A DNA stretch of 64,000 bases from Acidimicrobiia bacterium. Its GTDB lineage: Bacteria; Actinomycetota; Acidimicrobiia; Spongiisociales; UBA11373. Positions 4,966 to 8,812 of the stretch are shown piece by piece. Position 1 is the first letter of the stretch. Each line of letters opens with the position of its first letter. A program made the position numbers and the translations under genes. Location of the stretch: positions 1,719,469 through 1,783,468 of the forward strand of contig CP129495.1 of the NCBI GenBank assembly GCA_030584185.1. Direction: 5' to 3'. A model generated the notes under the pieces. The model was not told where the DNA came from. It saw only the letters and a program-made list of their open reading frames with translations, and did no database searches.

Positions 4966-5354
4966 CCAAGCCCCTCGCCCTGACCGTGGGCCGCCGCAAG
5001 ACCTCGGTGGTCCGGGTGCGCCTTCGCGACGGCTCGGGAAAGATGAGCCTCAACGGTCGCAGCCTGGAGGACTACTTCCCGACGATGGCCAACCGCATCC
5101 GGATCCTGGAGGTGTTCAAGGTCGCCAATCTCGAAGGGCGATATGACCTCGAGGCGATCCTCGAAGGCGGTGGTGTCACCGGGCAGGTCGACGGGCTGCG
5201 GCTGGGAATCGCTCGGGCCCTGATCGAAATAGATCCCGAGCTGCGGCCATCGCTGAAGCGGGCCGGACTGCTCACCCGCGATGCTCGCGCCGTGGAGCGC
5301 AAGAAGTACGGTCTGCGCAAGGCTCGCCGGGCAACACAGTTCACCAAGCGCTGA
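4962..5354 (+). CDS. rpsI: 30S ribosomal protein S9
   Basis: A 130-residue S9. It shows the family's [12 protein letters not shown] segment, the Gly-rich [19 protein letters not shown] region and the basic C-terminal tail ending [17 protein letters not shown], which reaches the P-site tRNA. The ATG at 4962 overlaps the rplM stop. Upstream in-frame starts would read through rplM and were discarded. Confidence 0.97.
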
Positions 5355-5388
5355 AGCGCTGCGGCGCCTCATGGCGAAGGAGCCGCCC

Positions 5389-6726
5389 ATGGCCGAGAAT
5401 CGACTCTTTGGAACCGACGGTGTTCGCGGCCTGGCGAACGTCGAGATCACCCCGGAGCTGGCGGTAGGCCTGACGCGAGCTGCCGCCGCCGGCCGATCGG
5501 GCACGGTCGTCGTGGGTCGGGACACGCGCCGCTCCGGACAGATGTTGATCGCAGCTGTCGTGGCGGGGTGCAACTCGGCCGGTCTGGACGCCGTCGACCT
5601 GGGAATCGTCCCCGTCGGGGCGGTGAGCCACCACACAATCGAGCGGCGTGCCACCCTCGGCGTGATGGTCTCGGCCTCCCACAACCCGGCAGCGGACAAC
5701 GGAATCAAGTTCTTCGGCTCCGATGGGGCCAAGCTCGCTTCCGAGGAAGAGGCTGCGATCGAGGCCCGGTTCCGGTCGTCGGAATCCGGCGGCCGCCTCA
5801 GCGGTGAAGAGATCGGTGTTCAGCTGCCGGACCCGGCGGCCGTCGACGAGTACATCGACCATCTGGCGTCGCTCTCGCAGTACCGGCTGAGCGGCATCAA
5901 GGTCACCCTCGATTGTGCCAACGGCGCCGCCTTCCTGGCGGCGCCAAGGCTCTTCTCGCATCTCGGCGCCGAGACCGAAGCCCTCTTCGTGGCCCCATCC
6001 GGGATGAACATCAACGACGGCTGTGGCGCCGTGTCGCCCGGGGTGCTGGCGTCGCGGGTGGCGGGTGGCGTCGGGCTGGCATTCGACGGCGACGCCGATC
6101 GTTGCATCGCCGTGGATGAGGACGGGCAGGTGTGCGACGGCGACGTGATCATGGCGATCATCGCCCGGCACCTGAAGGAGAACCAGGCGCTGCCCGGTGA
6201 CCGGCTGGTGGCCACGGTCATGTCCAACCTCGGGTTCCGCACCGCGATGTCGTCCCTGTCGGTCGCCGTCGAGGAGACCCCCGTCGGTGATCGGTACGTG
6301 CTCGAGGCAATGCGTCGCACCGGGGCCGCCCTTGGTGGTGAGCAGAGCGGCCACGTGCTGTTCGGCGGCCGGGCCACCGGTGACGGCCTGCTCACCGGTC
6401 TGCGCCTTCTCGAGGTGATGGCAGCCACGGGCAGGCCGCTTCGGGAGCTGCGCCGGGTGATGACCGCGTTCCCCCAGGTGCTTCGCAACGTTCGGGTCCG
6501 CGTGAAGGAGCGATTGGGTGATGCCGAGGCCATCTGGGAGGCGGTGCGGCGTGTGGAGAAGCGCCTCGGTGACGAGGGTCGAGTCCTGGTGCGCTCCTCG
6601 GGGACCGAGCCTCTGGTTCGGGTGATGGTCGAGGCCCGGGCACCGCACGAGGCCGCCTCTGCGGCCGACGACATCGCCGCCGTCGTTCGGCGCGAGTTGG
6701 GCGCCACATCCGACGACGAGGGCTAA
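5389..6726 (+). CDS. glmM: Phosphoglucosamine mutase
   Basis: Converts glucosamine-6-P to glucosamine-1-P for UDP-GlcNAc and peptidoglycan. The 445-residue length matches the family. The active-site loop SASHNP contains phosphoserine Ser97, DGDADR is the Mg2+ loop, GGEQSGH binds sugar, and RSSGTEPLVRVMVEA is the C-terminal phosphate-binding loop. An AAGGAG box 7 nt upstream favours the ATG at 5389 over the one at 5371. It acts one step after GlmS, encoded next. Confidence 0.95.
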   Translation: MAENRLFGTDGVRGLANVEITPELAVGLTRAAAAGRSGTVVVGRDTRRSGQMLIAAVVAGCNSAGLDAVDLGIVPVGAVSHHTIERRATLGVMVSASHNPAADNGIKFFGSDGAKLASEEEAAIEARFRSSESGGRLSGEEIGVQLPDPAAVDEYIDHLASLSQYRLSGIKVTLDCANGAAFLAAPRLFSHLGAETEALFVAPSGMNINDGCGAVSPGVLASRVAGGVGLAFDGDADRCIAVDEDGQVCDGDVIMAIIARHLKENQALPGDRLVATVMSNLGFRTAMSSLSVAVEETPVGDRYVLEAMRRTGAALGGEQSGHVLFGGRATGDGLLTGLRLLEVMAATGRPLRELRRVMTAFPQVLRNVRVRVKERLGDAEAIWEAVRRVEKRLGDEGRVLVRSSGTEPLVRVMVEARAPHEAASAADDIAAVVRRELGATSDDEG

Positions 6727-6729
6727 CCT
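6724..6729 (+). promoter_or_regulatory. -10 box TAACCT upstream of the glmS ribozyme
   Basis: TAACCT overlaps the glmM stop codon. It would start an RNA near 6736, about 54 nt before the predicted ribozyme cleavage site, so glmS can be transcribed separately from glmM. Confidence 0.45.
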
Positions 6730-6789
6730 GGGTTTGCCGCCGGTGACGGTGGTCGGCAAGAAGAAGCAGACCGGAGACACAGTTCTGCA

Positions 6790-6925
6790 GCGCCTGGCCT
6801 CCTTCCGGGGAGGTGACGAGGAAGAGGGAGCATCGAAAGATTCGGCGGATGCCCTCTCGGCCGCTCACGGTCGTGACGTCGTGGAGAAAAGCCCGGGGGT
6901 GACCCCGGTGGACAGAGACCACGGC
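6790..6925 (+). ncRNA. glmS ribozyme: glmS ribozyme/riboswitch in the 5' UTR of glmS
   Basis: The region matches the known ribozyme in order. The cleavage sequence A|GCGCC puts the scissile bond between 6789 and 6790. P1 is CCTCC/GGAGG (6798-6802 with 6809-6813). The invariant GACGAGG is at 6815-6821. P2 is AGAGGG/CCCTCT (6823-6828 with 6852-6857), enclosing the core ATCGA (6832-6836) and TTCGGCGGATGCC (6841-6853). A short P3-like hairpin lies at 6865-6876. P4 is CCGGGG/CCCCGG closed by a GUGA tetraloop (6893-6908), then GTGG/CCAC (6908-6922). In the family, glucosamine-6-P acts as cofactor for self-cleavage and the mRNA is then degraded, giving feedback on GlmS. A short reading frame through 6734-6931 is explained by this RNA. 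Confidence 0.9.
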
Positions 6926-6985
6926 GAGTGAGGCGGGTTGCGGCCCGCACCCGGCTCCGGTCTCCCGACGAAGGGAGACACTCTC

Positions 6986-8812
6986 GTGTGTGGAATCATG
7001 GGCTACGTGGGGCCGCGTCAGGCGTCCCCGATCGTCGTCGACGGCCTTCGCCGTCTCGAGTACCGCGGATACGACTCGGCGGGTATCGCCGTCCACGACG
7101 GGGACCGCCTGGGGGTCGCCAAGGCGGAGGGCAAGCTCGCCCGGCTCGACGACCTGCTCCAGCAGCACCCGCTCTCGGGAACCTGGGGGATCGGCCACAC
7201 GCGCTGGGCGACCCATGGCGCCCCCAGCGACCGGAACGCGCACCCTCACGCCGATCCGCACGGAGAGATCGTCCTCGTGCACAACGGGATCATCGAGAAC
7301 TTTCTGGAGCTCAAAGAAGGGCTGGAGGAGGAAGGTGCCGATTTCAGCTCCGAGACCGACACCGAGGTGCTCGCACACCTCGTCGCCGCCGAGTACGACG
7401 GCGATCTCCTGGAGGCGGTTCGCCGGGCGGTGGCCAGGGCTCAGGGCGCCTACGCCCTGGTGGCGATGGCCCGCAACGAGCCGGGGCGCATGGTGGCGGT
7501 GAGGATGATCTCCCCACTCGTGGTGGGGATCGGCGACGGTGAGATGTTCCTCGCCTCCGACGTCCCGGCGCTCTTGCCGCACACGCGCCAGATCGTCATC
7601 GTCGAGAACGGCGAGGTCGTCGACATCACCGCCAACTCGTTCCACATCGAGACCCTGGGCGGGGAGCGGGTGGAGAGATCCCCGATGGAGATCACCTGGA
7701 GCGCCGAGCAGGCAGAGCGTGGCGGGTTCCCACACTTCATGATCAAGGAGATCCATGAGCAGTCCCGGGCCGCCACCGAAACCTTGAGCGGACGGGTCCA
7801 AGCCGACGGGTCGGTGGACCTCGAAGGCGTCGCCTTTCCAGGCGGCTTCGCAGCCGGCCTGGAGAAGGTGTGGATCACCGCCTGCGGAACCGCGCTGCAT
7901 GCCGGGCTGGTGGGCAAGCACGTGTTCGAGAGCCTGCTTCGCATCCCCACAGAGGTCGCCTACGCCCATGAGCTTCGCTACTCCCACCCGCTGATCACTC
8001 CGGGCACCCTCACCATCGCCATCAGCCAGTCGGGGGAGACCGCCGACACCCTGGCGGCGGCGACGCTCGCCAAGAGCCTCGGCTCCCGTCTGCTGGCACT
8101 CACCAACGTGGTCGGCTCGACGCTGAGCCGAGAGGCGGACGACGTCCTCTACACGAGAGCCGGACCGGAGATCGCCGTCGCCTCGACCAAGGCCTACCTC
8201 ACCATGCTGGTCGGCGAGTACCTGTTGGCCCTGTCCGTCGGACAGGCTCGTCGGTCGATCCCCGATGCGGTCGTCGCCGAGCTGACCGGGGCGCTGCACT
8301 CGATCCCCTCCCGGATCGACGGGGCCCTGAGCAACGAGCAGGCGATCGCGGCCCTGGCCAAGCGGCTTGCCGGGCACGAGCACGCCTTCTTCATCGGGCG
8401 GGGCCTGGATCATGCGGTTGCCATGGAGGGCTCCCTGAAGATGAAGGAGATCTCCTATGTGCACTCCGAAGCGATGCCCGCCGGTGAGCTGAAGCACGGC
8501 ACGCTAGCCCTGGTCACTCCGGGCACACCTGTGGTGGTCGTGATCACTCAGGGGGAGACATATGACAAGACCGTCTCCGCGATCCAAGAGGTGAAGGCGC
8601 GGGGGGCGCAGGTGGTGGCAGTGGCCTTCGACGACGACTCCGAGATCGGGAAGCATGCCGACGAGGTGATGCGGGTTCCGCGGGTGCCCGACATCCTCTC
8701 GCCGTTGGTGGCGATCGTTCCCCTGCAGCTCCTCGCCTATCACCTGGCTGCAGAGCGGGGGCACGACATCGACCAGCCGCGCAACCTGGCCAAGTCCGTC
8801 ACCGTCGAGTAG
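6986..8812 (+). CDS. glmS: Glutamine-fructose-6-phosphate aminotransferase (isomerizing)
   Basis: Makes glucosamine-6-P from fructose-6-P and glutamine, the first step to UDP-GlcNAc. The 608-residue protein begins MCGIMGYVG, so Met removal exposes the catalytic Cys of the class II glutamine amidotransferase domain (about 1-230). Two SIS domains follow, with TACGTALHAG, SQSGETADT and the C-terminal NLAKSVTVE tail that carries the isomerase loop. The GTG at 6986 is chosen because Cys must be residue 2 and an AAGGGAG box lies 8 nt upstream. Expression should be controlled by the ribozyme ending about 60 nt upstream. Confidence 0.96.
   Translation: MCGIMGYVGPRQASPIVVDGLRRLEYRGYDSAGIAVHDGDRLGVAKAEGKLARLDDLLQQHPLSGTWGIGHTRWATHGAPSDRNAHPHADPHGEIVLVHNGIIENFLELKEGLEEEGADFSSETDTEVLAHLVAAEYDGDLLEAVRRAVARAQGAYALVAMARNEPGRMVAVRMISPLVVGIGDGEMFLASDVPALLPHTRQIVIVENGEVVDITANSFHIETLGGERVERSPMEITWSAEQAERGGFPHFMIKEIHEQSRAATETLSGRVQADGSVDLEGVAFPGGFAAGLEKVWITACGTALHAGLVGKHVFESLLRIPTEVAYAHELRYSHPLITPGTLTIAISQSGETADTLAAATLAKSLGSRLLALTNVVGSTLSREADDVLYTRAGPEIAVASTKAYLTMLVGEYLLALSVGQARRSIPDAVVAELTGALHSIPSRIDGALSNEQAIAALAKRLAGHEHAFFIGRGLDHAVAMEGSLKMKEISYVHSEAMPAGELKHGTLALVTPGTPVVVVITQGETYDKTVSAIQEVKARGAQVVAVAFDDDSEIGKHADEVMRVPRVPDILSPLVAIVPLQLLAYHLAAERGHDIDQPRNLAKSVTVE

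Follow-up and report, generated by a model that had tools for sequence, protein, structure and literature searches.

A glmS ribozyme of Acidimicrobiia flanked by a conserved leader helix, a candidate for cleavage-driven control of glmS translation

The window analysed here is a DNA stretch of 64 kb from a genome of the Acidimicrobiia, assigned to the order UBA5794 in the classification used. Its genes glmM and glmS are separated by 259 nt (6727-6985). The features of this region are listed in Table 1.

Table 1 Features of the glmM-glmS region (positions in the window)
Feature	Position	Strand	Remarks
glmM	5281-6726	+	longest ORF; Pfam PGM_PMM domains; stop TAA 6724-6726
glmM, probable start of the conserved protein	5389	+	MAENRLFGTDG
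TAACCT, possible -10 element	6724-6729	+	overlaps glmM stop; weak
H1 5' arm AGACCGGAG	6768-6776	+	leader strand 5' of the cut; proposed anti-anti-SD
glmS ribozyme, RF00234	6778-6935	+	catalytic RNA from 6790
Predicted cleavage site A|G	6789-6790	+	covariance-model alignment
H1 3' arm CTCCGGTCT	6955-6963	+	pairs with 6768-6776
H2 5' arm GTCTCCC (anti-SD)	6960-6966	+	GTCT also part of the H1 3' arm
H2 3' arm GGGAGAC	6973-6979	+	contains the glmS Shine-Dalgarno (SD) sequence
glmS	6986-8812	+	glutamine-fructose-6-phosphate aminotransferase, 608 aa; GTG start, VCGIMGYVG; Pfam

The window was compared with all 4227 Rfam families by cmscan. The glmS ribozyme (RF00234) was the sole match, with 89.9 bits at a gathering score of 37 (E 1.9e-19). 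It precedes the glmS coding sequence on the same strand and spans the model positions 1-167, i.e. it is of full length and not truncated. The same match was returned by a local rerun on 6500-7200, and it is the only one in the genome of 2.21 Mb. P1, GACGAGG, AUCGA, UUCGGCGGAUG, P2 and P4 with a GUGA loop are all present in the RF00234 alignment, including the core blocks of the class (AGCGCC at the cleavage site, GACGAGG, AUCGA, UUCGGCGGAUG and a GNRA-capped P4). The scissile A6789|G6790 is predicted within AGCGCCUG. A sequence-only reading of this DNA had proposed a complete glmS ribozyme in an actinobacterial genome, and the score far above the cut-off over the full model length confirms this; its list of conserved blocks agrees with the covariance-model alignment. 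It had also suggested a look at the leaders of related Acidimicrobiia. Here the ribozyme was found above cut-off in 57 of the 59 genomes sampled from the order UBA5794 and the window's family. Thus, a full-length glmS ribozyme is confirmed for the window by sequence comparison, and its cleavage and glucosamine-6-phosphate (GlcN6P) dependence are predicted. Position before glmS, conserved blocks and predicted A|G site correspond to the ribozymes of Bacillus subtilis and Thermoanaerobacter. By itself, it is a further member of an already known class.

Transcription may start about 7-8 nt downstream of TAACCT. This hexamer also occurs in the leaders of three related loci (L124, L129 and L142). 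A sigma-70 consensus scan found nothing, thus the assignment of TAACCT as -10 element is weak. No intrinsic terminator was detected on the plus strand. Several leaders, among them those of L112, L124, L129, L154 and L159, share a conserved ACAACYGA-like element at the presumed transcript start, in most cases 23-37 nt upstream of the cleavage site. It is often accompanied by TAnnnT 6-8 nt upstream (26 of 59 loci, with 0.33 expected by shuffling). When genomes were searched for TAnnnT-ACAACYGA, few sites were obtained in each, and their number barely exceeded that of a reversed-pattern control. The leader of the window is without a clear copy.

The leader in front of the cleavage site contains a strand perfectly complementary to the one just before the glmS SD. 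This helix, H1, lies outside the Rfam model and was overlooked by the sequence-only reading. Across the genera of the order its complementarity is maintained by quite different, compensating sequences, as in L124 (GGGTCGGA/TCCGACCC), L137 (GAATGCTGGAG/CTCCAGCATTC), L128 (GATCAAGC/GCTTGATC), L154 (GAGGACC/GGTCCTC) and L159 (GAGCAC/GTGCTC). Since H1 was first spotted by eye in a comparison of the relatives, controls were used to test it. Unrestricted duplex energies of 60- and 75-nt segments were uninformative in this GC-rich DNA (own -35.2, swapped -34.4) and therefore replaced by ungapped helix scores in defined sequence windows (n=59).

Own leaders with own pre-SD strands scored 21.4, compared to 16.9 after swapping the species (z 9.8, p<=1e-5); none of 100,000 species permutations reached the own-pair score. 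Reversed leaders scored 15.6 (p 9e-9). In species swaps no enrichment was found for the leader against the coding sequence or against the ribozyme. For a control segment far upstream, own pairs scored slightly above the swaps (19.2 vs 17.9, p 0.001), thus a small background effect is present. When the mRNA was scanned, the enrichment peaked between -34 and -22 nt relative to the glmS start (z 7.3, 13.2 and 11.4), with the maximum at -28 nt (z 13.2); no signal was seen from -70 to -46 or within the coding sequence. With one genome per genus z was still 8.4. A helix score of at least 19 was reached in 20 of 32 genera, compared to 17% of the swaps, and these 20 helices comprise 19 distinct 5' arms. 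The family f3 of the order scored low (16.7, compared to 21.7 in the rest); its one sampled GlmS groups with other Actinomycetota. In general, the H1 pairing across the order is well supported by these sequence comparisons. It is very improbable that the ribozyme is an ordinary one, with H1 and the hairpin H2 described below as by-products of GC-rich composition and of SD- or anti-SD-like letters in the leader. The GC-rich genomes and the small excess in the far-upstream control would agree with this, but it is contradicted by the species-swap, reversed-leader, positional and one-per-genus controls, and AT-rich Actinomarina-like genomes show the pairing, too. Since the arms vary between genera and are located about 190-380 nt apart, we dismissed the possibility of a DNA inverted repeat that acts as operator for a protein.

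The H1 3' arm keeps a nearly constant distance to the glmS start (sd 6.8 nt), whereas its distance to the cleavage site varies widely (sd 51 nt). This bears on the idea that H1 is a structural closing helix, which aids folding or cleavage of the ribozyme and is close to the SD only incidentally. The ribozyme is enclosed by H1 in all cases, as expected for such a helix. Yet the distance from cleavage site to glmS start ranges from 188 to 377 nt, and H1 remains about 30 nt before the start. Furthermore, minimal glmS ribozymes of other bacteria function without an H1-like helix. Hence, we consider a purely structural role improbable.

Beyond the order, a leader arm and a complementary pre-SD strand were found in 26 of 26 Actinomarina-like loci. 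The arm is of the AACGAGC type (one AGCGAGC, one GACGAGC), with the complement directly before the SD. It is nearly constant (own 21.8, permuted 21.5), which indicates conservation more than covariation. In many of these loci a TATAAT-like element is located just upstream of the arm. Judging from the putative start sites, the transcribed leader may comprise hardly anything beyond the H1 strand. The hairpin of these loci lies beside the SD, not on it. No H1 enrichment was detected in 23 mostly Bacillota (non-UBA5794) loci and no H1 pairing in small samples of the actinobacterial families f53 and f37. A weak signal was obtained for the Rubrobacter-like family f47 (p 0.02).

In the window, the H2 5' arm GTCTCCC pairs with the SD-containing GGGAGAC and overlaps the H1 3' arm by GTCT. 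Predicted SD pairing amounts to 0.99 in the window's family (13 loci; shuffles 0.63) and to 0.76 over the order (shuffles 0.57). Blocking of the H1 3' arm lowered it from 0.78 to 0.53, compared to 0.66 when other stretches were blocked (p 0.0016); this effect was clearest in the families f1, f5 and f8. H2 over the SD is clear in the same three families and in part of f2, and weak in f3, f4 and f7. For the window an H1 duplex energy of -15.6 and a cost of 12.2 kcal/mol for freeing the 3' arm were calculated. In this model, gain and cost would be in a near balance suited to switching. In equilibrium folding with an unstructured linker in place of the ribozyme, the mean unpaired fraction of the SD was 0.32 with the own leader and 0.28 without; for the window itself, the leader did not open the SD at all under these conditions. 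Because the leader effect at equilibrium is small, co-transcriptional folding is invoked: the switch may depend on it or on ends brought closer by the ribozyme fold.

The pairing of the leader with the strand just before the SD suggests that the cut switches translation directly. From these computed features we infer the following course for cleavage, ligand response, leader release and translation. In the uncleaved mRNA, H1 would form across the ribozyme and weaken the SD-hiding hairpin H2, and glmS would be translated. At high GlcN6P the ribozyme would cut at 6789|6790. The leader, no longer covalently tied, would be lost and H1 with it. The freed strand would refold as H2 over the SD, and translation would stop. 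As a second layer, RNase J, which is encoded in the genome, may then degrade the cleaved mRNA. The sign of this switch agrees with the known negative feedback. We slightly favour the reading that GlcN6P-triggered cleavage switches glmS translation through this long-range H1/H2 platform. For the broader claim of a conserved subclass in UBA5794 and the Actinomarina-like group, in which self-cleavage would remove a tethered anti-anti-SD leader and directly switch translation initiation, we regard the chances as even.

The main rival explanation assigns H1 a purely protective role at the 5' end and leaves all regulation to decay. H1 would tie the 5' end and shield the uncleaved mRNA from 5'-end-dependent RNases, with no direct switching of translation; cleavage would strip this shield and expose a 5'-OH end for RNase J, as in Bacillus. 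RNase J is present, the known decay route could suffice, and decay by RNase J1 is the reviewed mechanism of glmS ribozyme repression (PMC10907184). The Actinomarina-like loci would also fit, with an H1 arm seemingly almost at the transcript start and no evident SD-masking hairpin. In contrast, end protection needs neither the anchoring of the 3' arm to the glmS start nor SD pairing, and in several families the H1 3' strand also pairs with the SD. Moreover, the Bacillota loci, for which decay is the established route, showed no H1. Protection alone is thus a possible but rather unlikely explanation.

Compared to known glmS ribozymes, a leader in front of the cut that pairs with a pre-SD strand able to mask the SD is the difference found here. 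The class has been treated as an odd riboswitch without expression platform that acts by RNA decay only (PMC10907184; PMC13273304). A study from 2026 searched for expression platforms among glmS variants, with the conclusion that none is commonly used; as described, sequences were extended and classified by downstream intrinsic terminators (PMC13273304). Its methods cite glmS as RF00083, the accession of GlmZ_SraJ. Owing to the terminator-based classification and this accession, if it is not a misprint, the negative result may not apply to the loci examined here. In the searchable literature, to which earlier surveys of the class do not belong, no paper joins the glmS riboswitch with Acidimicrobi- or Rubrobacter, a covarying leader/pre-SD helix is new for the class, and a cleavage-driven platform has no description for it.

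Many TPP riboswitches use a translational platform of anti-SD and anti-anti-SD strands. Two competing helices around the SD are common to these and to the switch proposed here. In TPP-type riboswitches the ligand stabilises a pairing, whereas here self-cleavage would covalently remove the anti-anti-SD strand. In Clostridioides difficile a c-di-GMP-II riboswitch is coupled to a group I intron, and splicing builds a ribosome-binding site. Both systems have in common that a ligand-controlled ribozyme reaction alters, or in our case would alter, the access to the ribosome-binding site. In the switch proposed here, cleavage would instead take away an anti-sequestering strand, and we do not suggest that the two RNAs are related in sequence. 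H1 suggests that the discarded 5' fragment has a function, and as a cleavage-detachable helix it is a testable case of catalysis-driven translational switching. If the reading is true, metabolite-triggered RNA catalysis directly controls translation initiation in a natural glmS subclass.

Regarding the origin of the ribozyme, it was found in 67 of 148 genomes sampled from the class Acidimicrobiia and in 75 of 396 from the phylum. The matches in the class include many Actinomarina-like genomes of 0.6-1.1 Mb (family f12), and other families of the phylum also carry the ribozyme. This places it widely in non-model Actinomycetota, beyond its reputation as an RNA of Bacillota. The sampled families of Acidimicrobiia without ribozyme are mostly without canonical GlmS and instead show GlmS matches of about 30% inside ORFs >1,100 aa. 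Exceptions are f15 and f16 with canonical glmS and no ribozyme. Hence, the RNA and the glmS gene are largely kept or lost together. This co-occurrence, together with the order-wide presence of the ribozyme, argues against a transfer of the RNA alone, one of two origins offered by the sequence-only reading. The other one, a wider ancient distribution, agrees better with the data; from the GlmS phylogeny, however, ribozyme and glmS may also have been transferred together at an early time. In the GlmS tree most UBA5794 families and the Actinomarina-like group are placed with GlmS of the Bacillota side and not with other Actinomycetota, with moderate support (SH-aLRT 93-94 by a quick method, not starred).

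Some single records were conspicuous. In f9, f14, f18 and other families a divergent GlmS-like protein is encoded in ORFs >1,100 aa, and no canonical GlmS of 608 aa was found. For one of these ORFs (L281:550-3909, minus strand) GATase_6 and SIS domains were assigned by Pfam; similar matches occur in L278-L280. A ribozyme more than 1 kb upstream of glmS, probably with a gene between them, was observed in L040:500-698 and G206:C124:4129-4371. A second RF00234-like match in L145 (G034:C72:18760-18922; 26 bits) is below the cut-off and probably due to chance. Two records labelled as Acidobacteria (L033) and Armatimonadetes (L039) contain a UBA5794-type glmS with ribozyme and look mislabelled.
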